From: an uncultured Acidobacteriia bacterium
GTDB lineage: Bacteria; Acidobacteriota; Terriglobia; Bryobacterales; Bryobacteraceae
Assembly: GCA_903882645.1 (NCBI GenBank)
Contig: CAIRXZ010000133.1
Span: forward strand, 1 to 49,402
Reading direction: 5' to 3'
DNA length: 49,402 nt
Part shown: piece after piece, positions 159-35,035 of the stretch
Numbering within the stretch: position 1 is the first letter of the stretch
Layout: each line of letters opens with the position of its first letter
Position numbers and translations under genes: made by a program
Notes under the pieces: generated by a model
What the model was told of the DNA's origin: nothing
What the model saw: only the letters and a program-made list of their open reading frames with translations
Database searches by the model: none

Positions 159-1059
159 CCACCTGCGGGAGAACGGTCTCTGGGATCGTCTTTCGCGGAC
201 GAATCTCCCGAAGAACGTGCACCTCCATACGACCCCTGGCGCCGTGAAGATTATGGATGACGACGGAACGCCCGTGTTCCTCCTGCCGGCGCCGCTTCCC
301 CATATCGCGAGTGTAGACGATCTCACGGGCTACATGGACAAAGAGGCCACGCCTGAGGGAGCCATCCGAATCGGGATGGCGCACGGCTCGATCCAGGGTT
401 TCGGCTCGGATGGCGAGGCCTCAAACTACGTCGAGCCGACTCGCGCTGACACCGCGGGGCTCGCCTACCTGGCCATGGGCGATTGGCACCGGCAGGTACA
501 GATCAATGATCGCGTGTGGTATTCCGGCACGCCAGAGCCGGATCTGTTCAAGCGCCCACCAGGTTCCAGCGGGACGCTCTGCAACGGCGGCACCGCGCTT
601 GTCGTCGATATCGCCGGCGCGCGCGCAACGCCCACAGTTTTACCCGTCGAGGCCGGCCGGTACCGCTGGCACCAGGTCATGAAGACGCTCACAGAAGACT
701 CTCAGATCGATCTCCTGGAAGCGGAACTTCGTGCGCTCGAACCCGACTTGAGCAGAGTCGTGCTCGATCTCCAGGTTACGGGAACGCTGTCGCTGGCCGG
801 TCGCAAGAGATTTGAGGAGAGGATCATCCACGGCATCGGGGCCGCAGTGTGCGCCACGCGGTGGCAGGATGGTGGGCTGGTTCTTGAGCCGACGGAAGCA
901 GACATGGACGATATCGACCGCTCGGGATTCGTTCGCGTGGCGGCGGACCGGCTCAAGGTGATGGCCGACGACCGCTCCGATCAAGAGCGGGCGCGCCTTG
1001 CTTCCCTCGCCTTGCGCCGATTGTATCTTGAACATCTGCGGCAGGCAGGGGTCTCATGA
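109..1059 (+). CDS. SbcD/Mre11-like metallophosphoesterase, N-terminally truncated
   Basis: The product (about 316 residues) belongs to the SbcD/Mre11 family of calcineurin-like nucleases, which cut DNA ends together with an SbcC/Rad50 ATPase. The motif GNHD is seen at residues 14-17 and GDWH at 124-127, followed by the family's RVWYSG region near 137-142. The first two metal-binding motifs (DxH and GDxxD), normally within the first 60 residues, are absent. An in-frame stop lies at 103-105 and the first usable codon is TTG at 109. The gene is therefore broken at its 5' end, or starts beyond a frameshift. It overlaps the SbcC-like gene by 4 bp, so the two were translated as a pair. A nuclease lacking these metal ligands would probably be inactive (inference). 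Confidence 0.75.
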   Translation: MRQFPMVTWHLMPGNHDHLRENGLWDRLSRTNLPKNVHLHTTPGAVKIMDDDGTPVFLLPAPLPHIASVDDLTGYMDKEATPEGAIRIGMAHGSIQGFGSDGEASNYVEPTRADTAGLAYLAMGDWHRQVQINDRVWYSGTPEPDLFKRPPGSSGTLCNGGTALVVDIAGARATPTVLPVEAGRYRWHQVMKTLTEDSQIDLLEAELRALEPDLSRVVLDLQVTGTLSLAGRKRFEERIIHGIGAAVCATRWQDGGLVLEPTEADMDDIDRSGFVRVAADRLKVMADDRSDQERARLASLALRRLYLEHLRQAGVS

Positions 1060-3740
1060 AAATCCGCTCGATCAAGCTCACAAATTTTCGCAAGTTCATC
1101 GGCACCGTCGGCGTCGATGGAATCACCGATGGCGTCAATCTTCTCGTCGGCGAGAACGAGGTCGGAAAATCGACGCTACTGGAAGCAATCAACGGTGTGA
1201 TCTTCGAAAAGGCGAAGTCACAGACCGAGCGCGCAAGAAGCTTCCGACACTTCGTCAACGGCACAGTACCGGAGGTCGAACTGGCGTTCGATCTCGACGG
1301 TACGCGCTGGACTATTCTAAAGCGGTTCGCCGGCCCATCCGGGAAAGCGGTGCTGACTAATTCAGATCACCGTCGTTTCGAAGACGAGGCGGCGGAGTTA
1401 GAGCTGCAACGACTGCTTGAATTCGCGAGTCGCCGGGGCGGCGGCGAGGCTGGCATTTGGGGAACGCTCTGGGTGCGTCAGGGTAGTTCGTTTGGCGATG
1501 CCAAGCTTGACGATGCCGGTCGTCGCACCTTGCAGGGTTGCATCGAGGCCCAAGTTGGCGTTGTCACAGGCGGGGAGAGGGGCCGGAGGATTCCGGCGGC
1601 GGTCGACCACGCGCTTGAAGAAATTCTGAGCGCGCGGGGGCCACGCGGAAAATTCAAGGATGCCAAAGATCGGCTCGACGAGGTGGGCGGACGAGCCAAC
1701 CAGCTGGAAGAAAAACGACGGGAGATCTTTGAATACATGGACACACTCGCGCGCCAAAAGCGCGAGCGCAAAGACCTTCAGGTCGATTGGAGCGAGGAAG
1801 CCCATCGGCGCGAGCTTGATGAGGCACGGACCCGTCGCACGGCGGCGGCCACCAAAGCTGCTGAGCTTGAGGCGTCCCGGAATGCGGCGAAGCTCGCAGA
1901 GGAGCGGGCGGTACGCGAACGGATGGCAGTGACGGAGCGCGCGAAGCTGGCGCGAGAACTCGACCCGATAGAGGCCGAGATCAAGGGACTCACGACCGAT
2001 ATTGGCCAGGCCGAGACTCACAAGAATGAGACCAGACTTCTGGTCGAGACCTGCGAAAAAAGACTCGCCGAACTCCGCGAGCAGGCGCGTCTTAACGGTG
2101 AGCAGAGTCGGCGACTTGAGCGCATCCGTAGCGCCGCCGCTCTCTATACCGAGATCGCGCAGCATGAGGCGACGCTGGCAAAAGCGGTAGACCTACAGGC
2201 TGATGCCGGCCGGCTCTCCGAGTTAATGGGTCAGATCACCGCGACAGACGAGGCCGTGTCGCGGATCGAGGCTGCCGATACAGAGCTTTCCGGCGCAAAG
2301 GCGGCGCTCAACGCGGTCGCGACCACGGTATCGCTCGCGATCGAGCGAGATGCATTGGGCCGGGTGCGCCTCGATGGTGTGCCGCTTGATGCGCCGACGA
2401 TGTCTCTCGCTGTCGTCGCCAAAACATTGATTGGCGTCGAAGGGGTTGGAAAGATCGCCGTCGAACCGCAAATCCACGACCGCGACGCGATTCTTGAGCG
2501 GCGGCGTCTGGCCGAAAGTCAACTCAAGGCGGCGCTTGAGGCGGCCGGTGCCGAAAACCTGACCGCCGCCCGCTACGCGGTGGCGCAGCGCCGTGAGTTG
2601 GAGCGGCAGCTCGCAGATGTTCGCCGTGAGATTGCGGGTCTTGCGCCGCGAGACCCGTCGACCAAGCTGGCAGCAGGCCTGGATGCGCGCCAGACTCGTG
2701 TGAGGGAATTACGAGGCCGGCTCAAAACGGAATTAGAAGTGCTGGGTCTTTCCGCGCTGCCAACGACTGCGGAGATCGCGAAGGAAATTGCTGAGACTCA
2801 TGACAGGGCCGAACAACTGGCTGCTGACATTGGGACAGCCGAGGCGGCAGTGGAGGGACCAAAGGGCGTGCTCGCCGAAGCGACCGCAACGTTGCAAGAG
2901 CTGGAGCAACGCCTAGCCGGGCGGCGTGGCACTCTTGAGACGAAGCAAGCCGCCCTTACGGCGGGCCGGTCCCAAGCCAGCGACGAAGAACTCTCGACCC
3001 ATGCCAATGAACTCACGCTGCGGGCCACCGAGCAACAGACCGCTCTCACGACACTCCAGAATAGCCAGGGAGAAGCGGTTGAAGCAATCGACGTGCGCAT
3101 TAAGCGCCTTGAGGCTGCCGGGCGAAATCATCAGGATGCTGTGGCTGGGCTGAACAATGAGATCACGCGGCTCACGACGTTGATCGAGGCCAGCGAGGGT
3201 GCCGGCGTCGAAGAAGCACTTGAGGTTGCAAGAGCGGAGCAAGCCCGGCTTGAGGCGGCGGTGAAAGGCTACGAGGAGGAGGCCGCTGTTCTTCAACTAC
3301 TCCAGCAGACCCTGCGTGAGGCCGAACGAGAGGCCAAAGCTCTCTATCTGGCTCCAGTAGTGAGCCGCGTCGAGCCATACCTGAAGATGTTGCTGCCAGG
3401 CACGGCTCTGGTGCTCGACGAGAACCTGAGCATAAGCGCCATTCAGCGCAACGGGACCGCCGAGGCGTTTGGTCGCCTCAGCGACGGAACGCAGGAACAG
3501 CTTGCTGTGCTCACGCGTCTTGCCTTTGCGGAACTCTTGCTCGCGCAAGGCCGCCCGGCAACCGTCATCCTCGATGACGCTCTGGCTTTCAGTGATGACC
3601 TGCGCATCGAGCGAATGTTCGATATCCTGATGCGCGCGGGGGAAAATGTGCAGATCCTCGTGCTGACGTGCCGCAAGCGATTATTCGCCAGGCTGGGTGC
3701 GGCGGAACTAAATCTTAAGGAAATGCACGGCGCGACCTAA
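1056..3740 (+). CDS. SbcC/Rad50-like SMC-type ATPase
   Basis: This 894-residue protein has the layout of an SbcC/Rad50 ATPase. An N-terminal half-site carries Walker A GENEVGKS at residues 32-39. It is followed by about 600 residues of heptad-rich coiled coil, and then a C-terminal half with the signature LSDGTQEQL from residue 808 and a Walker B ILDDALAF with D840/D841. I see no CxxC zinc hook in the coiled coil, so dimerization at its apex must differ from classical Rad50. The ATG overlaps the stop of the SbcD-like gene. Such pairs process DNA ends. Its place directly upstream of SIR2 and HerA suggests a defence role, but that is inference. The family call is secure; the precise subfamily is not. 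Confidence 0.88.
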   Translation: MKIRSIKLTNFRKFIGTVGVDGITDGVNLLVGENEVGKSTLLEAINGVIFEKAKSQTERARSFRHFVNGTVPEVELAFDLDGTRWTILKRFAGPSGKAVLTNSDHRRFEDEAAELELQRLLEFASRRGGGEAGIWGTLWVRQGSSFGDAKLDDAGRRTLQGCIEAQVGVVTGGERGRRIPAAVDHALEEILSARGPRGKFKDAKDRLDEVGGRANQLEEKRREIFEYMDTLARQKRERKDLQVDWSEEAHRRELDEARTRRTAAATKAAELEASRNAAKLAEERAVRERMAVTERAKLARELDPIEAEIKGLTTDIGQAETHKNETRLLVETCEKRLAELREQARLNGEQSRRLERIRSAAALYTEIAQHEATLAKAVDLQADAGRLSELMGQITATDEAVSRIEAADTELSGAKAALNAVATTVSLAIERDALGRVRLDGVPLDAPTMSLAVVAKTLIGVEGVGKIAVEPQIHDRDAILERRRLAESQLKAALEAAGAENLTAARYAVAQRRELERQLADVRREIAGLAPRDPSTKLAAGLDARQTRVRELRGRLKTELEVLGLSALPTTAEIAKEIAETHDRAEQLAADIGTAEAAVEGPKGVLAEATATLQELEQRLAGRRGTLETKQAALTAGRSQASDEELSTHANELTLRATEQQTALTTLQNSQGEAVEAIDVRIKRLEAAGRNHQDAVAGLNNEITRLTTLIEASEGAGVEEALEVARAEQARLEAAVKGYEEEAAVLQLLQQTLREAEREAKALYLAPVVSRVEPYLKMLLPGTALVLDENLSISAIQRNGTAEAFGRLSDGTQEQLAVLTRLAFAELLLAQGRPATVILDDALAFSDDLRIERMFDILMRAGENVQILVLTCRKRLFARLGAAELNLKEMHGAT

Positions 3741-3759
3741 GAGGCATTGAGGGGGAAGA

Positions 3760-3903
3760 ATGCGCATCGACAAAGTGAGAATTAGGAACTTGGGGGTTTT
3801 GCAACGCGTGGGAAGCGCGGAAAAACAAAAAGCTGGTCAGGATTCTCGCGGCTCATACGGCTTATGGCGGTTTTCTGTTCCGTTGCTACTCAGACCCCTT
3901 TAA
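3760..3903 (+). pseudogene. 47-aa ORF resembling the N-terminus of an OLD/RecF-like ATPase
   Basis: A GGGGGAAG ribosome-binding sequence precedes ATG 3760. The product starts MRIDKVRIRNLGVLQ, which is how the first beta strands of OLD and RecF-type ATPases usually read. The similarity ends after about 17 residues, before any Walker A motif. The stop (3901-3903) lies six bases before the SIR2 start, so its translation could feed SIR2 translation. I read it as the stub of a lost ATPase gene, though a short leader peptide is possible. Confidence 0.4.
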
Positions 3904-3909
3904 GGAAAG

Positions 3910-4977
3910 ATGCTGCTATTGAAGACGCTCACGACATTGAGTGCGAACACGGACTACGACGAACTGGTCAAGTTTGTGCAAGGGCATTTCACCGACGGTC
4001 TCGCGTTGGTGATCGGGTCCGGGCTCTCGTCCGCTGAGGGAATGCCTGGGATGCCTGAGCTTGCCGCGCATCTGAGCGGCCGCGCCGGCACGCTGGTAGC
4101 AGACGACGCGGCGCTCTGGTCCCTGATCAAGGTGACCATTGACGCGAATGAGGGACTGGAGGCCGCGCTCCTAAAGCACGCGCCAACCGACTCTCTTGAA
4201 GTCTGGATTGCGCAAGGAACGTCCGAACTGCTAATGCCGAAGGAACGCGAAATTATAAGCGCGGTGCTCCGAGGGGAGAGCACACTTCGCCTGACGACAT
4301 TCCTGGACAAGATATTGAAGCCGACGACTGGATTGCCGATTCTGACCCCCAACTATGACCGACTGATCGAGGTCGCCTGCGAAATGGCAGGATTCCATGT
4401 AGACACCACAGCCGTCGGGCACTATGCGGGCGCGTTCGACCATACCCGAAGTTGCATGGCATCATGCCGAGGCATCACAACGCGCGCCAAGACTACTGTC
4501 CTCGACCACTTCCCGCGTGCGATCGTCCTGAAGCCGCATGGGAGCTTTGACTGGTACAAATTCGGCAATGACGCGCGGCGCTGCAGTTTGGATCTGGACG
4601 CGGAACGGCTCATCATCACGCCTGGTCTCAACAAGTACCGGGCTGGCTACAACGCGCCATTTGACAAGCATCGCGATTTGGCCAACGACTACATCAAGCT
4701 GGCCGGTCGTCTGCTGGTGGTGGGGTACGGGTTCAACGACGATCACCTGCAAACCCATCTCGTAAGACGGATTCAGGATGGCACGCCCACGCTGATCTTG
4801 AACCAATCGGCGAGCTCGAAGGTCGAGAAGCTGGCGGAGGAATCGCCGAGCTGCGTTTGCCTCTCGAAACCGACGGCAGGGGCGGGAGTCGTGATGGTGA
4901 CAAAGGGCCACCGGTTCGAGCATCAGGGGCACGATTTGTGGGATCTGGGCGTTCTGGCAAAGGAGCTACTGACATGA
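3910..4977 (+). CDS. SIR2-family NADase-type defence protein
   Basis: This 355-residue protein carries SIR2-fold motifs in order: GSGLS at 36-40 (nucleotide-binding loop), TPNYD at 146-150, KPHGS at 208-212 with the likely catalytic H210, and VGYGFNDDH at 271-279. Prokaryotic defence SIR2 domains of this type hydrolyse NAD+ rather than deacetylate proteins. The start has a good AAGGAAAG site, and the 3' end overlaps the HerA gene by 4 bp (ATGA). SIR2 next to a HerA-type ATPase matches the known SIR2-HerA anti-phage pair, in which the two proteins form a complex that depletes NAD+ on infection. Assignment to that pair rests on family knowledge and gene order. Confidence 0.87.
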   Translation: MLLLKTLTTLSANTDYDELVKFVQGHFTDGLALVIGSGLSSAEGMPGMPELAAHLSGRAGTLVADDAALWSLIKVTIDANEGLEAALLKHAPTDSLEVWIAQGTSELLMPKEREIISAVLRGESTLRLTTFLDKILKPTTGLPILTPNYDRLIEVACEMAGFHVDTTAVGHYAGAFDHTRSCMASCRGITTRAKTTVLDHFPRAIVLKPHGSFDWYKFGNDARRCSLDLDAERLIITPGLNKYRAGYNAPFDKHRDLANDYIKLAGRLLVVGYGFNDDHLQTHLVRRIQDGTPTLILNQSASSKVEKLAEESPSCVCLSKPTAGAGVVMVTKGHRFEHQGHDLWDLGVLAKELLT

Positions 4978-20365: not shown

Positions 20366-21271
20366 ATGCAGAATACAGAACGGCAGGATATCTACAGCCG
20401 CATCACCGGAAAAATCGTCGCTTCCTTAGAGGCGGGCGTCCGCCCCTGGATCAAACCGTGGAGCGGAGAGAATGCCGCCGGCAGGATCACGCGCCCCTTA
20501 CGCCACAACGGCATACCCTATTCCGGTATCAACATCCTTTTGCTGTGGGCTTCTTCGGTCGAACAGGGCTTCGACTCACCAAGCTGGATGACCTTCAGGC
20601 AAGCGCTTGAGCTCAACGCCCACGTCCGCAAGGGCGAGAAGGGTTCACTGGTCGTGTATGCCAACTCGATCACGAAGACCGAGCAGAACGACGCCGGGGA
20701 GGACGTCGAGCGCGATATCCATTTTCTGAAAGGCTACACAGTTTTCAACTGTGATCAAATCGAAGGCCTGCCCGAGCAGTACTACGTGAAGCCGGAGCCG
20801 AAGTTCACCGCCGTCGAACGCATCGAACACGCCGAGGCGTTTTTCGCGGCCACCAAAGCTGATATTCGCTACCGGGGCGGACGGGCCTACTACGCCCAGG
20901 AACCCGACTACATCCAGATGCCGCCGATCGAGAGCTTCCGCGACGCCGAATCGTTTTACGCCACGCTTGGCCACGAATGTGTTCACTGGGTAAAGCATCC
21001 GTCCCGCCTTGACCGTGATTTCGGACGCAAGAGCTGGGGCGACGAAGGCTATGCCCGCGAGGAACTCGTCGCCGAGTTGGGCGCCGCTTTCCTGTGCGCC
21101 GATCTCGAACTCACCCCGGAGGTCCGCGACGACCACGCCTCCTACCTCGCCTCGTGGCTGGAAGTTTTGAAGAACGAGAGCCGCGCGATCTTCACCGCCG
21201 CCGCCCATGCCCAACGCGCCGTCGATTTCCTACACAAGCTCCAGCCGGAGCGCATAGAGGCCGCCGCTTAG
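20366..21271 (+). CDS. ardC: ArdC-like antirestriction protein
   Basis: The 301-residue protein has the ArdC N-terminal ssDNA-binding domain (IYSRITGKIVASLEAG at 9-24, PYSGINILLLW, then the KGEKGSLVVYA segment). A zincin-like metallopeptidase domain follows with GHECVHW (H203, E204, H207) and a downstream EELVAELGAAF supplying the third ligand. ArdC proteins enter recipients with the transferred strand and protect incoming DNA from restriction. The ribosome-binding site (GAAAGGAAC) and leader C precede it. All zinc ligands are intact. Confidence 0.92.
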   Translation: MQNTERQDIYSRITGKIVASLEAGVRPWIKPWSGENAAGRITRPLRHNGIPYSGINILLLWASSVEQGFDSPSWMTFRQALELNAHVRKGEKGSLVVYANSITKTEQNDAGEDVERDIHFLKGYTVFNCDQIEGLPEQYYVKPEPKFTAVERIEHAEAFFAATKADIRYRGGRAYYAQEPDYIQMPPIESFRDAESFYATLGHECVHWVKHPSRLDRDFGRKSWGDEGYAREELVAELGAAFLCADLELTPEVRDDHASYLASWLEVLKNESRAIFTAAAHAQRAVDFLHKLQPERIEAAA

Positions 21272-24372: not shown

Positions 24373-26040
24373 ATGATCCTGAAGGGCAATCAACGCGCCG
24401 GCGGGCAACAACTGGCCGCCCACCTGATGAACTCGTTCGATAACGAACGCGTTGAGGTCGCGGAAGTCCGGGGCGCCGTCGCGCAGGATCTTTCCGGCGC
24501 TTTCGCCGAATGGGCCGGAGAGGCCCGCGCCACCCGCTGCGAAAAATACATCTACAGCCTTTCCTTAAGCCCCGACCAGGCGCAGGGCCGCCTCACCCGC
24601 GAGCAATATTTCGATCTGATCGCCCGCACCGAACGCAGCCTGAAGCTGATCGACCAGCCGCGCGCCGTGGTTTTTCACGAAAAACGCGACAAGGATGGAA
24701 CCTTGCGCCAGCACGCGCACGTCGTCTGGTCGCGCATCGACAGCGAAAAAGCCAAGGCCATCCCGATCGGGCACGACCACCTGAAACTGCGCAGCGTAGC
24801 AAAGGAGTTCGCCCGCGATTACGGGCTGGAACTCCCCGACGGCATGAGGAAAGACGGCAAGAGCGATCGCTTCAACGACCGCGCGAAACAGGAAAACCTC
24901 GGCGAAAAGCAGCAGCAGGAAAGAACGGGAATCACCAAGGCCGGGCGCATGGCCGAGATCGCCGCCTGCTGGACCGCCACGAAGACCGGCCCGGAATTCG
25001 TCCGCGCCATGGAGGACAAGGGTTATCACCTGGCGCGCGGCGACAAGCGCACTTACGTGGTGATCGATCTTTATGGCGAAATCCATAGCCTGTCGCGCCA
25101 GCTTGGCGGCGTAGCGAAGAGGAAAGAACTCATGGACCGCCTGTCCGGTTATCCGCCGGACAAACAGCCCGACATTGAATCCGCGCGGGCTTACGCCCGG
25201 CAGAAATTGCAGCAACGGCAGAAGGCGCAGGAGAAAGGCAGCAGCCAGGAGGCGATGGGCTTGTCCGCCGAAGCCTCGGCGAAGGCGGAAGCGAAAGCGG
25301 CCGAGGGGAATCTCTTGAAGCAGCGTCGAGAGGCATTGGCGGAACGCCAGGCCGAAAGGCGCGCCCAGCTGGACAAACAGCGCACCGACCTCTTCGCCCG
25401 CCAATTCGCGGAACGAGGGGCGCTGCGCGAGATGCAGGCGGCCGGGAAGGAAGGCGTCGCCGCGGCCCGGACGGAGCGGCAACCGAAGGGCCTGGCCGCG
25501 TTCCTGACGCGCATCACCGGGATCGGCAGTCTTGTTTCGTGGGTGCAGAACAAGGCCGATCAGAAACGCGAATCGGCGCACAAGCGGCAGACTGAAACCC
25601 TTCTGCGCCGCCATGACCGCGAGTTGAAGGAAGTGGACCGCCATTACAGCGCCCTCGACCGCCTGGAAGCGCGCGAAAATCGCGCCGCCGACAACGCCGG
25701 CCTCCGCGAAGGATACCGTAAGCTGCGCCTGCGCACCTTCGCGCTCAAACCGGAATTCGATAAAGCCCTGACGCGGCCAGAGGCGACGGCCGCCGCAGGC
25801 GGCGGCGGAAAAACCGCCGGATTATTCAACCGCCTCGCCGCCGGCATGGGCTTCAGCAAAGGGGACCTGCAGGCCGCTTTCGAGCGCGCCACCGCCGGCA
25901 AAGCTGCGCCCTCGGGCGATACCGATACTAAAGGCCACTCCCCCGCCGATCCCGAAAAACTGGAACAGGCCCGCCAGCTCCGCGACGAACTCAGCCGCCG
26001 CCAGCCGCGTCCGGGTCCCGACCGGGACCGGGAGCGCTGA
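24373..26040 (+). CDS. relaxase/mobilization nuclease (VirD2/MobP-like)
   Basis: The 555-residue protein starts MILKGNQRAGGQQLAAHLMN, a typical N-terminus of plasmid relaxases. It carries the catalytic three-His motif as VVFHEK (H102) and QHAHVVWSR (H114, H116). The enzyme would nick one strand at oriT and pilot it to the recipient. The C-terminal half (about 260-555) is long charged helix, rich in A, K, E, R and Q, and probably interacts with the coupling protein or DNA. The nicking Tyr cannot be fixed by eye. The oriT-like hairpins lie just upstream. Confidence 0.88.
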   Translation: MILKGNQRAGGQQLAAHLMNSFDNERVEVAEVRGAVAQDLSGAFAEWAGEARATRCEKYIYSLSLSPDQAQGRLTREQYFDLIARTERSLKLIDQPRAVVFHEKRDKDGTLRQHAHVVWSRIDSEKAKAIPIGHDHLKLRSVAKEFARDYGLELPDGMRKDGKSDRFNDRAKQENLGEKQQQERTGITKAGRMAEIAACWTATKTGPEFVRAMEDKGYHLARGDKRTYVVIDLYGEIHSLSRQLGGVAKRKELMDRLSGYPPDKQPDIESARAYARQKLQQRQKAQEKGSSQEAMGLSAEASAKAEAKAAEGNLLKQRREALAERQAERRAQLDKQRTDLFARQFAERGALREMQAAGKEGVAAARTERQPKGLAAFLTRITGIGSLVSWVQNKADQKRESAHKRQTETLLRRHDRELKEVDRHYSALDRLEARENRAADNAGLREGYRKLRLRTFALKPEFDKALTRPEATAAAGGGGKTAGLFNRLAAGMGFSKGDLQAAFERATAGKAAPSGDTDTKGHSPADPEKLEQARQLRDELSRRQPRPGPDRDRER

Positions 26041-27502: not shown

Positions 27503-27874
27503 ATGGCGGAGCCGGAACGCACGACATCGTTCGCCAAGAACGTCGAGGGCCTGCAGCACGAGGAATCGGCCCTGGACCGCGCCCGCGCCCTGCGCGACCA
27601 ATTTGCCCACGCGCAGAACGACAACCAGAAACAGAAGGAAACCGAGACGGAAAAACCGCCTGCAGGCTCGCAGATGATCAGTCAGGACGCCCCGGTCCTG
27701 CGCCCCACGCCGAGCGGCCCGATGCGTCAGATGACCGACCGGCAGGCCGCTTCAACGCGGCTGGGGAAGGAACGCGGCGACGCCGAAAAGAAGAACGATG
27801 CGGCGAAAATGGCGCAGCAGTTCAGGTCCCTGCAGGGCAAATCCCACGATCACGAACACGACCGCGATCTATAG
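27503..27874 (+). CDS. 123-aa hydrophilic protein beside the coupling-protein gene
   Basis: The product is very hydrophilic and helical, rich in Q, K, E, D and R, with ALDRARALRDQFAHAQND near the start and HDHEHDRDL at the end. It overlaps the last six bases of the convergent coupling-protein gene. Its composition resembles accessory relaxosome proteins. No family is recognised. Confidence 0.5.
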   Translation: MAEPERTTSFAKNVEGLQHEESALDRARALRDQFAHAQNDNQKQKETETEKPPAGSQMISQDAPVLRPTPSGPMRQMTDRQAASTRLGKERGDAEKKNDAAKMAQQFRSLQGKSHDHEHDRDL

Positions 27875-30304
27875 CGGTTTGCCGCCGCGCTTCCCGATCA
27901 GATCCGTCTGCCGGGCCGACTTCACGCTCATTCCGACGGCCACTGCGGCGAACGCGAGCAGAAGTATGACCGCCCCGCCCGACGGGCTTTGTGTCACCCA
28001 CCATAGTGTCCCGGCGGTAAGAATCCAGAACATCACCGCCGCCAGCCGGGCCATCCCCCGCGACTCCATCAGCGCGCCGGTTGCAGTTTCCTGCTTCGCC
28101 GCCACGGCGCGCGCGAATTCCTGCTGGTATTTCCGCAGTGCCGCAAAGGGGTCCACTGGGGCTACGCCGTCTTCGTAATATTCCACCTGGTACAAAGGCC
28201 CGCTCGTAAACTCCCCCGTCAGGCCCTTGAACCGCCCGCCCCTGCCAGCCAGCAGCTGCGCCACCCACTTCTCCCCGGCGGCGAAAACACCAACCGGCTG
28301 GCCGGGGCTGACAATCGTGCCGGGTCCGATCTTCCAGCCAGCGAACTTCAGCCCCGCGCTGTCCGGATCGAATAGCCGCGCCAGTTCCCCGCAGTCCTCC
28401 CCACTGACGAGTAGCGTTTGTATTTCGTTCAGAGCATGATCCGGATGCGGATCGAACAGCCGCGCGAACTGGAAATCCTCGTAGTAATTCACCCGCCGCA
28501 GCGCCACCGGCCGCGCCCCGGAGATCACCGCCAGCGCGAGGCCGGGATAGGCGGGATGCGCCCGGTCATCGATGCGGGAAAAAACCTGCCCTATCTCATC
28601 GGGGGTAACAAGGGCGCGCTTCTGGATGGTTTCGCTCGCCCCCGAGGTGCGCGACTCCGAGCTGCCGCGTGTCGTCCCATCCGTTTCGCTTATGCTGGTC
28701 CCCGAAGTATCCGAAGTCCCGTCCGTCGCCGATCGCGACGTGCCGTGAGACACCCCGTGCGACTCGCCCTCGGTCCAGCCCCTGGATTTGCCCTGCGACT
28801 GGCTCCTGCTGTCCCCGATCTTCTCGTAGTCGTAGTGACGGAAGATTATGCCCTGCGCATAGGTGTAATTCCGGGACCGGCTTTCGGAGCTGTTGACGCC
28901 CCATGATTTCCCGGTGCTGACCGAGCTGTTTGTCCCCTCGGTTTCGGAAGTGCCCGTCGAGGACGACCGCCCCCGGCTTTCCGATTGCGAACGCGCCGTG
29001 CTGCGCGATGTGCTTTCGGATTCCGACGCGCCCTCGCTCGCCGACTTTACCTCGCGGATGACTTCGGTTTCCCCGATCAGTTTGCTGACATAGTCGCGCG
29101 AGAAGTTGTCCTCAAGGTTGAAAAACACCTTAAGGCCGGAGTTCGCGAGGAAGGTTTCCCAGTTCTCCTTGTACGCCCCTTTCAGTTGCTCAAGGCTCTG
29201 AAGGACGAAGAACATCTTGACGCCGTAGCCCGCGATCTGGGCAACGGCGTGCTCGATGACCTCCATGCGTTTCAGCCCCGCGAATTCATCGAGCACCAGC
29301 AGGACGGGATGCCCGGCAGCCGGACGGCCGCCCACCTTCTCCATTTCCGTGACGGTCAGGCCGATCATCATGCGCAGCCACCGGTAGTGCGTGCTCATGT
29401 AGCGCTGCGGCAGGCACAGGTAAAGACTGAGCCCCTCGGGGCGGGTTTTCAGCTCCGAAAGCTGGAAGTCCGAAGCCTCCAGCAGGCGCTGCATGGCGGG
29501 TGAGTCGATGAACTCGGTGTTCCGGTTGGCGACCTGCAGCACGCTCTCATACTGCTTGGGCGAATTGATCAGCATGTTGGTGAAGGAATCGCCAATCCCG
29601 GCGACCAGCCCGTCGAATGCCGGGTTGTTCGCCAGCCCCGTCCACAGGAGGCCGTGCGCCGGGGGAAGGTTCGTCTCGCCCGCCTGCCGCAGCTCGTCGA
29701 TCGATTCCCAGTCGCCCCGCGTGACCAGTTTGCGCAGGGTGTTCAGGTTCCTTCGCCCTTCGTATCGGGGCGCTGTCAGAATGTGCAGGAGCAGTCCCTT
29801 GACCATCGCGCGCGCCGACTCATCCCAGAAAGGATCGGTCGTCGCGCCCTCGTGGATGACGACAAGGGCGTCGGCAATGCGCCCCGCCTCGTCGATGGTT
29901 TCCTCGTTCTGTGGATTGAGGGAGTCGAGCGGATTGAAGCGCCCCCGCAAGGCGTCGTCCACCTGAGCGGACTGGAACGGATCGAGAACCATGACCTTCT
30001 GGTTCATGCCCGTGGCGTGCTGCGATCCCGCGCCCCTTCTGGCGGCTGTGATGGTGGCGTTTTCGCCCTTGGGATCGACGACGCACACCGACCCCGGCCA
30101 GGTCAGCAGCGCCGGGATTATCCCGGTTGTGCCCTTGCCGCCCCGCGATCCGCCCACAAGACAGACATGGCGGTCGTCCATATAGCCGAGGGGAACCTGG
30201 TGTTCACTGGAGCGCCCCAGCCAGATCATGCCGTCGTGGTAGAGGTAGCGTTCCTCGACCTCGTCGGGGTTTGCCCATTCGGCTGTGGCGATGCGCATGG
30301 TCAT
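27869..30304 (-). CDS. type IV coupling protein (VirD4/TraG-like) with Ser-rich insertion
   Basis: The 811-residue protein is a TraG/VirD4-type ATPase that links the relaxosome to a secretion channel. Walker A is GGSRGGKGTT (51-60), followed by VCVVDPKGENA; Walker B is LLVLDEFAG (D338/E339 region); then comes the motif FVLQSLEQL. The usual N-terminal membrane helices are missing. Instead, one hydrophobic pair lies near the C-terminus (MFWILTAGTLWWV and ILLLAFAAVAVGM). Residues ~420-562 form a Ser/Gly/Thr/Glu-rich low-complexity stretch. No channel genes are present, so the element must borrow a channel if it transfers. Confidence 0.88.
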   Translation of the reverse strand: MTMRIATAEWANPDEVEERYLYHDGMIWLGRSSEHQVPLGYMDDRHVCLVGGSRGGKGTTGIIPALLTWPGSVCVVDPKGENATITAARRGAGSQHATGMNQKVMVLDPFQSAQVDDALRGRFNPLDSLNPQNEETIDEAGRIADALVVIHEGATTDPFWDESARAMVKGLLLHILTAPRYEGRRNLNTLRKLVTRGDWESIDELRQAGETNLPPAHGLLWTGLANNPAFDGLVAGIGDSFTNMLINSPKQYESVLQVANRNTEFIDSPAMQRLLEASDFQLSELKTRPEGLSLYLCLPQRYMSTHYRWLRMMIGLTVTEMEKVGGRPAAGHPVLLVLDEFAGLKRMEVIEHAVAQIAGYGVKMFFVLQSLEQLKGAYKENWETFLANSGLKVFFNLEDNFSRDYVSKLIGETEVIREVKSASEGASESESTSRSTARSQSESRGRSSSTGTSETEGTNSSVSTGKSWGVNSSESRSRNYTYAQGIIFRHYDYEKIGDSRSQSQGKSRGWTEGESHGVSHGTSRSATDGTSDTSGTSISETDGTTRGSSESRTSGASETIQKRALVTPDEIGQVFSRIDDRAHPAYPGLALAVISGARPVALRRVNYYEDFQFARLFDPHPDHALNEIQTLLVSGEDCGELARLFDPDSAGLKFAGWKIGPGTIVSPGQPVGVFAAGEKWVAQLLAGRGGRFKGLTGEFTSGPLYQVEYYEDGVAPVDPFAALRKYQQEFARAVAAKQETATGALMESRGMARLAAVMFWILTAGTLWWVTQSPSGGAVILLLAFAAVAVGMSVKSARQTDLIGKRGGKPL

Positions 30305-30564
30305 GTTTCAGCACATTCGGGGATAATGATAATGATACGCCCGTTGAGGTTTCGTTAAGGGATCGGGGGCAACAATGCTCTTGCATGGGAAACGCCGGTG
30401 ATAGTATGATGCGGTTACGTCAATTCGTTCCGGTTTTGTTCCGGAGCCAGCGCGCTGAGAAACCAAAGCGCAATCCAGCAGAAGAGACCGTCGCGGTATC
30501 GCTCGCAAGATGTGCGCGGGCAGACCGCGCGACCGTTCGCCTGGCGGCTCTCTCATCTTGGCAA

Positions 30565-30860
30565 GGGGGCAGCTTCGCCCCCCGTTGCATCCCCCGGACC
30601 AGGAGCGTTGCTCCGTGGACCTCACCAGACGCGCTTCGCCTTCTGGACTTCCGACCGGGAGGTGTTTCACCCTCCGGCCACCTGACCGCTGTTTCGACAG
30701 CGGCTTCGACCAGGAGAGCCTTCGTGCCCTCCATGGACCTCCAGACCGAGGGAGACTTCGCTCTCCCTCTGGACACCCATCGACCAGCCGTCCGCCGTCT
30801 GGACCAGCGCCAGGGCTTTCGCGCCCATGGACCACGACGAGGGGGCGTCCCCTGCCCTCG
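30565..30860. repeat. array of about ten consecutive hairpins separated by GACC
   Basis: Between the coupling-protein gene and mobC lies a run of short inverted repeats. The best are GGGGGC/GCCCCC (30565-30582), GGAGC/GCTCC (30602-30614), CCGGGAGGTG/CACCCTCCGG (30655-30677), CCGCTGT/ACAGCGG with TTCG loop (30686-30703), GAGGGAGA/TCTCCCTC (30748-30769), GGGC/GCCC (30813-30826) and CGAGGG/CCCTCG (30838-30860). GACC recurs between them at 30597, 30618, 30653, 30684, 30708, 30736, 30782, 30802, 30830 and 30860. The stems differ, but loops often contain TTCG. The rest of 30305-30935 shows no gene. Confidence 0.6.
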
Positions 30861-30935
30861 ACCCCCGGCCAACCCTGGGCGGATTGGATGCGCCCCGAGC
30901 GGGGGAAACACACAAGAGGCAACAGGAGCGGCGGC

Positions 30936-31400
30936 ATGAGCGACGACGGCAAGGACAAACGTAGCGGCAGCGAAAGCCGCCAACGGAGAAAGCGCTGGAC
31001 CATCCGTTTCAGCGACGACGAGAATGCCATAATCGAAAAACTGGTTGAAGCCACCAGACAGTCTCCAGGCGCCCTCCTCCGGGCTGCGCTGCTGAACGTT
31101 CCCCTTCCCCGCCACCGTCGGCCCACCGTCAACGACAAAGCTCTGGGTGCGTTTCTGGCCGCCGCCGCCAAGGTCAAGGACGCGCTCAAGGACAGCCTCG
31201 CCGAATTGGGGAAGTCGGGATCGAATCTTAACCAGATCGCCTACATGCTGAACGCTAACACCGCCCCTGCCCGGATCATGAACATCATCGAAAACGCCAT
31301 TAATGAACACAACGCCCTCGTCGCGCGGCATGAGGCGGCCTCCAAGGATCTGGATGAATTGCGCACTATGGCCATGGACGCTCTGGGGCTTGAGCGCTGA
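30936..31400 (+). CDS. mobC: MobC-like relaxosome protein
   Basis: ATG 30936 follows AGGAGCGGC. The 154-residue product has an N-terminal basic segment and a ribbon-helix-helix (KRWTIRFSDDENAIIEKLVE at 19-38). The MobC signature region comes later, with SLAELGKSGSNLNQIAYMLN followed by a helical tail. MobC proteins bind oriT and help the relaxase open the strands. An in-frame upstream extension to 30510 is open only because the hairpin array lacks stops; it is rejected as start. Confidence 0.82.
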   Translation: MSDDGKDKRSGSESRQRRKRWTIRFSDDENAIIEKLVEATRQSPGALLRAALLNVPLPRHRRPTVNDKALGAFLAAAAKVKDALKDSLAELGKSGSNLNQIAYMLNANTAPARIMNIIENAINEHNALVARHEAASKDLDELRTMAMDALGLER

Positions 31401-33729: not shown

Positions 33730-33788
33730 GACTCAAAATCTGGCGCACTTCACTGTGCGTGTGGGTTCGACCCCCACCTTCGCCACCA
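33730..33788 (+). tRNA. 3' fragment of tRNA-Leu(CAA): right attachment site (attR)
   Basis: The 59 bp run from the anticodon stem to CCA: anticodon loop CTCAAAA with CAA, the 3' stem TCTGG, a long Leu-type variable arm (GCGCACTTCACTGTGCG), T-arm GTGGGTTCGACCCCCAC (33761-33777), acceptor CTTCGCC and discriminator A with CCA. The 5' half is absent, and the 5' anticodon stem does not match. This is what is left when an element integrates in the 3' part of a tRNA gene. The intact gene should lie at the left end, outside the window. Confidence 0.85.
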
Positions 33789-33859
33789 TCTCAACGCTTT
33801 CCGCGCCTCCGCCGCGTGTTAATCTCAGGCTTTCAATCCCCTTCCGGAGAGCCTCAAAT

Positions 33860-35035
33860 ATGGCATATTTATCGATTCGCGATCTCGATCTGAACGGCAA
33901 ACGGGTCTTCATCCGCGTGGATTTCAACGTTCCGCTGCAAAGGAACGACGCGGGCGCCATGGAAATCACCAGCGACAAGCGCATCAAGGCGTCGCTGCCC
34001 ACCATTCAGTACGCGCTCGAGCACGGCGCCGGCGTCATCCTGGCGTCCCACCTCGGCCGTCCCAAAGGCAAACCGAATCCGGAGATGAGCCTCAAACCGG
34101 TCGCCGCGCGGCTCGAAGAGCTGCTCGGCCGCCCCGTGAAGATGGCCCCGGATTGCGTCGGCCCCGAAGTGGAGGCCCTGAAGCCCGCGCCGGGCGAAGT
34201 GTTGCTGCTCGAGAACCTCCGCTACCACGCCGAGGAAGAGAAGAACGACCCGGAGTTCGCCGCCAAACTGGCCGCCCTGTGCGACGTCTACGTCAACGAT
34301 GCATTCGGCTCCGCGCACCGCGCCCACGCCTCCACCGAAGGTATGATCCGGTTCGTCCCCACGGTCGCCGCCGGCCTGCTCATGGAGCAGGAGTTGAAGT
34401 ATCTCGGCATGGCCGTCACCAACCCCGTCCGGCCGTGCGTCGCTATCCTGGGCGGCGCCAAGGTGTCCGACAAGATCGAAGTCATCCAAAACCTGGGCAA
34501 GGTGGTGGACCGCCTGCTGATCGGCGGCGCCATGGCGTACACGTTCCTGAAGGCCCAGGGCCTACCCACCGGCAACTCGCTGGTGGAGGCGGACAAGGTC
34601 GATCTGGCCAAGAGCCTGCTGGCCGAACTCGGCGGCAAGCTGTTGCTGCCGGTGGATCACGTGGTAGTCTCGGAGATCGCCGCCGGCGCCGCGAGCGAGG
34701 TGGTGGAAACCATTCCGGACGGCAAGATCGGCGTCGATATCGGACCTAAGACCATCGACGAATACGCGCAGGTGATCGCCGGCGCCAAGACGGTGATCTG
34801 GAACGGCCCCATGGGCATCTTCGAGAAGCCCCCGTTCGACAAGGGCACCGTGGCGCTGGCGAAGGCGGTGGCCGCTTCGGGCGCAACCTCGGTGGTGGGC
34901 GGCGGCGATTCCGAAAAGGCCATCAAGGCCGCCGGCGTCACCAGCAAAATCACGCACGTCTCTACGGGCGGCGGGGCGTCCCTGGAGTTTCTGGCGGGGA
35001 TTCAACTGCCGGGCGTTGCCGCTCTGAATCGTTAG
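33860..35035 (+). CDS. pgk: phosphoglycerate kinase
   Basis: The 391-residue protein matches phosphoglycerate kinase throughout: [13 protein letters not shown] at the start, SHLGRPKG, the [14 protein letters not shown] region, GGAKVSDKI, the ATP-binding [12 protein letters not shown] and GGGDSEKA, and [13 protein letters not shown] at the end. It makes ATP from 1,3-bisphosphoglycerate in glycolysis. It is the first chromosomal gene after the integrated element. The ATG at 33860 has CGGAGAG upstream. Confidence 0.97.

Follow-up and report, generated by a model that had tools for sequence, protein, structure and literature searches.

A run of short hairpins with differing stems follows an oriT-like core in plasmids and candidate mobilizable elements

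We describe an array of short hairpins that lies directly 3' of an oriT-like core in a contig from an uncultured Acidobacteriia bacterium of the family Bryobacteraceae (49,402 nt analyzed as a whole, hereafter the window). Many plasmids and chromosomal elements, judged from sequence, carry an array of this kind behind one oriT-like core, and it needs no adjacent mobC gene. The explanation that we tentatively place first is that the array is a cis-acting part of the oriT module, located directly 3' of the probable nick site, where it would act as a single-strand structure of the leading end. The core, the array and the surrounding mobilization genes of the window are arranged as follows.

24373-26040, top strand: relaxase gene (PF03432, 44.7 bits, cut-off 24.6)
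27869-30304, bottom strand: T4SS coupling protein gene (PF02534, E 7.8e-59), divergent from the core
30506-30595, top strand: oriT-like core, aligned with 27 other cores (model R1, 58.4 bits)
30602-30614, no strand assigned: array hairpin 1, GGAGC[GTT]GCTCC
30625-30646, no strand assigned: array hairpin 2, CCAGACG[CGCTTCGC]CTTCTGG (script list)
30655-30677, no strand assigned: array hairpin 3, CCGGGAGG..CCTCCGG (inner part from the script, outer pairs by reading)
30686-30703, no strand assigned: array hairpin 4, CCGCTGT[TTCG]ACAGCGG (script list)
30710-30736, no strand assigned: array hairpin 5, CCA GGAGAGC[CTTCGT]GCCCTCC ATGG (script list)
30741-30772, no strand assigned: array hairpin 6, CCAGA..GAGGGAGA[CTTCGC]TCTCCCTC..TCTGG (script list)
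30784-30802, no strand assigned: array hairpin 7, CCAGCCG[TCCGC]CGTCTGG (script list)
30810-30830, no strand assigned: array hairpin 8, CCA GGGC..GCCC ATGG (by eye, absent from the script list)
30838-30860, no strand assigned: array hairpin 9, CGAGGGG..CCCCTGCCCTCG (inner part 30840-30853 computed, outer pairs by reading)
30869-30895, no strand assigned: distal unit of a recurrent type, CCAACCCTGGGCGGATTGG + ATGCGCCC
30936-31400, top strand: MobC/NikA-like relaxosome protein gene (PF21983, 35.2 bits, cut-off 27), behind the array

Positions 30596-30860 form a run of short hairpins whose stems are all different, with GACC or GGACC at the boundaries and TTCG-like loops, as the original prediction had described; a script lists eight hairpins in this stretch and a ninth (30810-30830) was added by eye. 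That prediction had started the run at 30565. The run is real, but its first hairpin (30561-30588) is part of the oriT-like core. One more hairpin is found at 30869-30887 (alternative pairing 30877-30895), and the distal unit is also present in L070, L084, L086 and L046. Hairpin 6 aligns across all five sequences of alignment A3, and the unit of hairpin 5 has a homologue in L084 and L070 and is missing in L086.

Whether the hairpins exceed chance depends on the test chosen, and the excess is real when folding is limited to short range. The fold of the whole 396 nt is about as good as that of its shuffles (z -0.78 and -1.04, with 21 and 18 of 100 shuffles equally good), and the array is inconspicuous when hairpins are counted per 330 bp, because its stems are short and imperfect. 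Short-span folding therefore took over from whole-length folding and hairpin counting as the test. With pairing spans of at most 25 nt, z falls to -4.3 on the top strand and -4.6 on the bottom strand (0/300 shuffles each), and longer spans weaken the signal (span 60, top strand: z -2.4, 3/300 shuffles). The equality with shuffled sequence that had been named as counting against the array thus holds for the whole-length fold and fails for the short-range fold. In a tile scan, none of the 308 window tiles scores below the one starting at 30561 (mean z -5.2), whereas 2 of 753 host genome tiles, sampled from 20 stretches (~0.36 Mb), do. Another strong palindrome series lies on host genome contig C1 (L012:1-240), with different stems and TTGGCAA- or TTGCCAA-like centers; its sequence is unrelated to the array.

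The core that precedes the array is built like an oriT: in the 28-core alignment, inverted repeats are followed by a conserved unpaired end on one strand. In the window, the inverted repeat CAAGATG (30506-30512) / CATCTTG (30554-30560) is followed by a second hairpin, GCAAGGGGG..CCCCCCGTTGC (30561-30588), and then by ATCCCCC (30589-30595), the probable nick region, which we take to resemble relaxase nick sites such as that of RP4. The hairpins lie 5' of the conserved unpaired end, from which we infer that the nick would be on the top strand. The block common to the DNA upstream of related mobC genes is CAAGATG..CATCTTG followed by GCAAGGGGG..CCCCCCGTTGCATCCCCC. The 28 related cores make up alignment A1, from which a covariance model was built; conservation of the fixed core letters is partly by construction, because the cores were found by patterns or similarity fixing those letters. 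In the second core hairpin, both sides of the outer pair differ in L112 (GACAAG/TTGTAT) and L168 (GGAAGG/TTCCAT) from the GCAAGG/TTGCAT seen elsewhere. These double changes suggest that GCAA pairs with TTGC beside the nick region. A relaxase shares the element with the core: one is present in the window, and one lies at most 31 kb away for 35/43 cores.

The core occurs as one exact copy in the host genome. Across the 257 genomes of the order, MobC homologues are found in seven (own genome included) and an exact pattern for the second half of the core in eight, and the reversed core pattern has zero matches. The exact core pattern identified 39 loci in genome_contigs and one IMG/VR contig. The covariance model detected the core in 51 of the 394 genomes of the family to which L087 belongs, read as Rhodobacteraceae, at 68 places and up to four per genome; at least two of these 51 genomes (G277 and G281) had supplied cores to the model.

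Hairpin-rich DNA, defined as a mean short-span z of -2 or lower across the 220 nt behind the core, follows the core in 67/113 loci, or 65/111 once two duplicates are removed. The original prediction had held that a lack of similar arrays in relatives would speak against it, and these core-linked arrays in 65 of 111 distinct loci show that relatives do carry them. At 400-640 nt behind the core, most stretches are near zero and a few (L065, L051) are still near -2. Named carriers include Roseococcus (L056), Stappia stellulata (L078), Ahrensia (L065) and Bryobacterales MAGs (L061, L070, L086), and plasmid carriers are found in Devosia neptuniae, Sphingopyxis, S. meliloti, R. ruizarguesonis and Tritonibacter mobilis. 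In Bradyrhizobium sp. 62B, array units are present in the stretch examined, in which no core was seen by eye or found by model R1. A plasmid search with MobC as query and a phage search with one array as query gave no match. In L110, the array stops mid-unit and is followed by what appears by eye to be a transposase reading frame (about 170-380 nt behind the core). The core stands without a clear array in 46 of the 111 distinct loci (including L052, L053, L059, L062, L066 and L073), so the array is dispensable for persistence of the core. In L059, L062, L066 and L073 (Jiella, Aurantimonas), among others, such an array-less core sits in a chromosome or large contig; these are possibly decayed or minimal mobilizable islands.

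The array could also consist of double-stranded or cruciform sites in the donor, to which MobC, the relaxase or a further relaxosome protein binds. In favor are the position of the array next to the core and the linkers and loops common to its units, but stem sequences vary from unit to unit and many cores have no array, which makes this reading quite improbable.

The position of the relaxase bears on what the array belongs to. We looked for it around 43 cores, the part of the 68 family places that falls in 30 genomes, with and without arrays. For 30/43 cores, a PF03432 relaxase is encoded on the opposite strand 5-31 kb downstream, which places the array at the end of the element opposite the mob genes. 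Elsewhere, the relaxase is less than 2 kb downstream on the same strand (4/43), upstream (1/43) or absent on the contig within 50 kb (8/43). Among the 30 cores with a distant, opposite-strand relaxase, 23 have a mean z of -2 or lower behind them and 26 are among the 75 arrays analyzed below. The array was originally proposed to be a structured RNA ahead of mobC, which is not borne out as stated, because an array of the same type follows the same core where the relaxase is kilobases away on the other strand. Arrays occur without an adjacent mobC, and we discarded a mobC leader as the general explanation. The array thus accompanies the oriT and is not merely a mobC leader.

A more general version of this idea is that the array is the top-strand 5' leader RNA of whichever gene follows, mobC in plasmids and a methylase or ArdA in islands. 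We examined the reading frame behind the array, for which the longest ORF that had 90 aa or more and ended over 420 nt past the core served as a crude proxy, and searched 20 of 47 such proteins. They comprise HsdM (4/20), MmeI-like proteins (3/20) and ArdA (1/20), all directed away from oriT, alongside other proteins (7/20) and ORFs with no Pfam match (5/20). Taken together, 12/20 are directed away from oriT, including all eight restriction-modification or ArdA genes, as a leader would have it, but 8/20 are on the other strand. The only sigma-70-like promoter site in 30250-31000 is on the top strand at 30298-30327, ahead of the core and outside the array, a position that would suit such a leader. 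Against it, the stems contain fewer G.T than A.C mismatches, the reverse of what a folded top-strand RNA would show, and we consider a leader RNA very unlikely. The restriction-modification and ArdA reading frames lie behind the arrays of L103, L107, L113, L114, L115, L126, L129 and L139.

Several of these loci resemble mobile elements. L172 and L173 encode a PF00239 serine recombinase, a coupling protein, a relaxase and, at the far end, a protein resembling MobC, whose match in L172 falls just short of the cut-off; they thus combine a relaxase with a site-specific recombinase, as integrative and mobilizable elements do. L175 carries a coupling protein and ArdA (4/13 ORFs scanned), and the scan of L174 covered 6/12 ORFs. 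In L173 and L174, tRNA genes are located within about 1 kb outside the mob end. No convincing att direct repeats of at least 13 bp were found at four elements, where short or shifted repeats can escape because the ends were guessed; the mobility of these elements is thus deduced from gene content only. Within about 20 kb behind the array, gene annotations include Shedu and TIR in pRlX4 and SAVED and Fic in Bradyrhizobium. In the window, an SMC/AAA-type ATPase gene adjoins a SIR2-like gene (1056-4974), an arrangement that looks like a defense system, and an ArdC-like antirestriction protein with a zincin-like metallopeptidase domain is encoded at 20366-21268. A phosphoglycerate kinase gene (33755-35032) lies on the same contig as the conjugation genes, and the contig may be a chromosomal island or a chimera. 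The window is one whole contig of a 366-contig genome, so a mis-binned plasmid contig is also possible.

The units of the array fall into recurrent types that conserve the loop or inner stem and the 3' linker and vary in the outer stem. These types include GAGA[CTTCGC]TCTC with ACCCATCGA, GGGC[TTTCGC]GCCC with ACCACGA, CCG[TATCGC]CGG with ..CACTCGC, GGGC[ATCGA]GCCC, which is the first unit, and CCAACC..GGATTGG+ATGC. The first two unit types hold their position behind the core in 38 loci. UUCG tetraloops were considered as the cause of the TTCG motif and rejected: the commonest loops are hexaloops (103/261 hairpins) without a C-G closing pair. Close relatives differ by the presence or absence of whole units. 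The Limimaricola, Defluviimonas and Seohaeicola loci are nearly identical, and Seohaeicola lacks exactly one 26-bp unit between GACC boundaries. In an alignment of the window with four relatives, L086 lacks one unit present in L084, and the window carries several 5'-side units absent from the four relatives. The suggestion of a cassette that grows by hairpin gain thus holds insofar as units come and go between GACC boundaries; the differences are unpolarized and fit gain or loss alike.

Of the 38 segments, 30 entered the covariation analysis of the first two units; L051, L058, L071, L087, L110, L115, L120 and L146 were left out. The shuffles used for comparison ignore the relatedness of loci, and slid versions preserve it. 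Read on the top strand, 91.5% of cells pair (shuffles 81.7%), 39 cells are changed on both sides (shuffles 10.5), and the covariation score reaches 0.238, compared with 0.079 for shuffles (0/500) and 0.009-0.100 when slid. One pair appears as CG 13, AU 7, UA 6 and GC 4 times, with no exceptions. Two top-strand measures are weaker: pairs changed on both sides (19/500 shuffles) and further pair types (190/500). On the bottom strand, all five covariation measures reach at most 1/500 and 94.2% of cells pair. The predicted stems stay paired while changing, by compensation.

Palindromes of this kind could in principle be functionless: template switching from arm to arm while single-stranded DNA is being synthesized would create them and keep them perfect, and GACC slippage near a site that is often single-stranded would multiply them. 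Such growth would account for the whole-unit differences between GACC boundaries, and template switching is reported to homogenize the arms of imperfect inverted repeats (PMC8604942; PMC3820800; PMC7202029). Neutral growth does not predict, however, that loops and linkers recur across genera while stems vary, nor that the first two unit types are fixed in place in 38 loci, and a strand bias of mismatches is not expected from it either. We judge this origin unlikely.

That strand bias concerns the mismatches that remain in the stems. Across 75 arrays (324 unique hairpins), A.C mismatches outnumber G.T by 140 to 50, and in the strongest 70 hairpins by 52 to 13. The 75 arrays are the 79 loci with a mean z of -1.5 or lower, adjusted by hand (L084, L086, L110 and L119 added; L047, L050, L055, L068, L080, L082, L083 and L108 removed). 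The G.T share is 0.26 for all hairpins and 0.20 for the strongest 70; shuffled arrays give 0.40 and control stretches 0.35 to 0.49. Relative to Watson-Crick pairs, A.C amounts to 8.0 to 9.6% and G.T to 2.4 to 2.8%. The inner pair of the first unit is CG in 25 cases, CA in 13, TA in 10, GC in 1, AC in 1 and TG in 0, and a pair in another unit type is AC in 11, AT in 5, GC in 3 and GT in 0. Of 58 positions alternating between G-C and A-T, 18 show A.C and 5 show G.T. Since a top-strand A.C is a G.U on the bottom strand, this bias favors a bottom-strand molecule. It speaks partly against the leading-end reading, where the top strand would be single-stranded. Selective repair of G.T in top-strand hairpins could, speculatively, be another source of the bias.

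In a rival reading, the array encodes a structured bottom-strand RNA, either templated by the incoming single strand or transcribed from an unrecognized promoter, which might serve near oriT as a primer, a regulator or a transfer factor. Such an RNA accounts for the excess of A.C over G.T better than single-stranded DNA at the leading end does, and is consistent with the larger share of cells that pair on the bottom strand. There is also a precedent: SGI1 is reported to need an RNA encoded between mpsA and oriT (PMC9299015). This sgm-sRNA resembles the array in coming from a non-coding region beside the oriT and mob genes of a mobilizable island, and differs in being an essential RNA with a mapped promoter, whereas the array is modular and known from DNA alone (PMC9299015). 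Other observations weigh against a bottom-strand RNA. The wobble counts are not independent, because homologous units share states; 11 of the additional cells that pair on the bottom strand trace to a single pair, so that the bias is carried by few positions, and the second unit is slightly opposite (three top-strand G.U cells, two on the bottom strand). No bottom-strand promoter-like site was found in 30250-31000, no common sequence was seen by eye at the distal ends of 15 arrays, and no array in the window or in 20 array loci matched an Rfam family at the gathering threshold (the one match, a tRNA, lies outside arrays, and sub-threshold matches look like chance). We regard a bottom-strand RNA as somewhat unlikely overall.

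Several known systems share features with the array. It resembles the oriTs of PF03432 (MobA/VirD2-like) relaxases with MobC/NikA-like proteins in its inverted repeats and conserved unpaired end and in its linkage to relaxase, MobC and coupling protein, and differs in the run of hairpins, variable in length and in stem, directly 3' of the core. We know of no described oriT with a hairpin array in this position. The Frpo/ssi sites of F-type plasmids are similarly folded structures near oriT, and the array, like them, is probably in the leading region. They are, however, one structure bearing a -35 and a -10, whereas the array consists of many short G+C-rich hairpins; in 30250-31000 of the window, no -35/-10 lies inside a folded stem, the sole promoter-like site being outside the array. 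Leading regions are reported to have anti-defense and methylase genes nearby (PMC11541004), and the array resembles them in having such genes near it. The array folds at short range, and we place it in the leading region by inference. CRISPR arrays and REP/RAYT elements are likewise rows of repeats or palindromes. The stems of the array are unrepeated, though, and it has one location, tied to oriT, with no dispersed host copies: we found neither near-identical direct repeats with unique spacers nor a second copy in the host genome, so that the original dismissal of CRISPR and REP was right. Searches of the literature by topic and by oligonucleotide letters, mainly in open-access text, turned up nothing recognizable as such an array. 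We group the array with oriT and leading-region structures, with a real chance that it is more than a variant of these.

Taken together, several observations speak for a role at the leading end: hairpin-rich DNA follows the core in 65 of the 111 distinct loci, the stems covary, relatives differ by single units, the relaxase lies far from the array for 30/43 cores, and restriction-modification or ArdA genes follow it in 8/20 cases. The genes behind the array that lie on the other strand (8/20) speak against it, as do the 46 distinct loci whose core has no clear array. Under the leading-end reading, the relaxase would nick the top strand in the ATCCCCC end of the core, and the array would thus enter the recipient first. 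There it would fold into a row of short hairpins with single-stranded linkers between them, marking the leading end for fast conversion to double strand as a landing and priming zone for establishment. It may be a single-strand initiation site, excluding SSB and aiding the loading of primase or polymerase, and fast copying would allow early expression of the first genes (methylase, ArdA, MobC). Differing stems would prevent pairing between hairpins and loss by recombination. In islands, the mob genes would enter last, as they do in classical plasmids, whereas early entry of mobC would be expected in loci of the plasmid type, the window included.

The first recognition and copying of a transferred single strand in its new cell is understood, to our knowledge, for few plasmids. 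The array may, though we advance this with some reserve, be a widespread modular device at the leading end, an open-ended series of interchangeable hairpins with conserved loops and linkers and free stems, that works as single-stranded DNA in the recipient or as RNA made from the incoming strand and starts establishment before the methylase or ArdA is expressed. It is a structure kept without its sequence, of a kind that ordinary similarity searches miss. The array can be read from sequence, and with its core in 51 of 394 genomes of one family it offers a concrete target for deletion and swapping.
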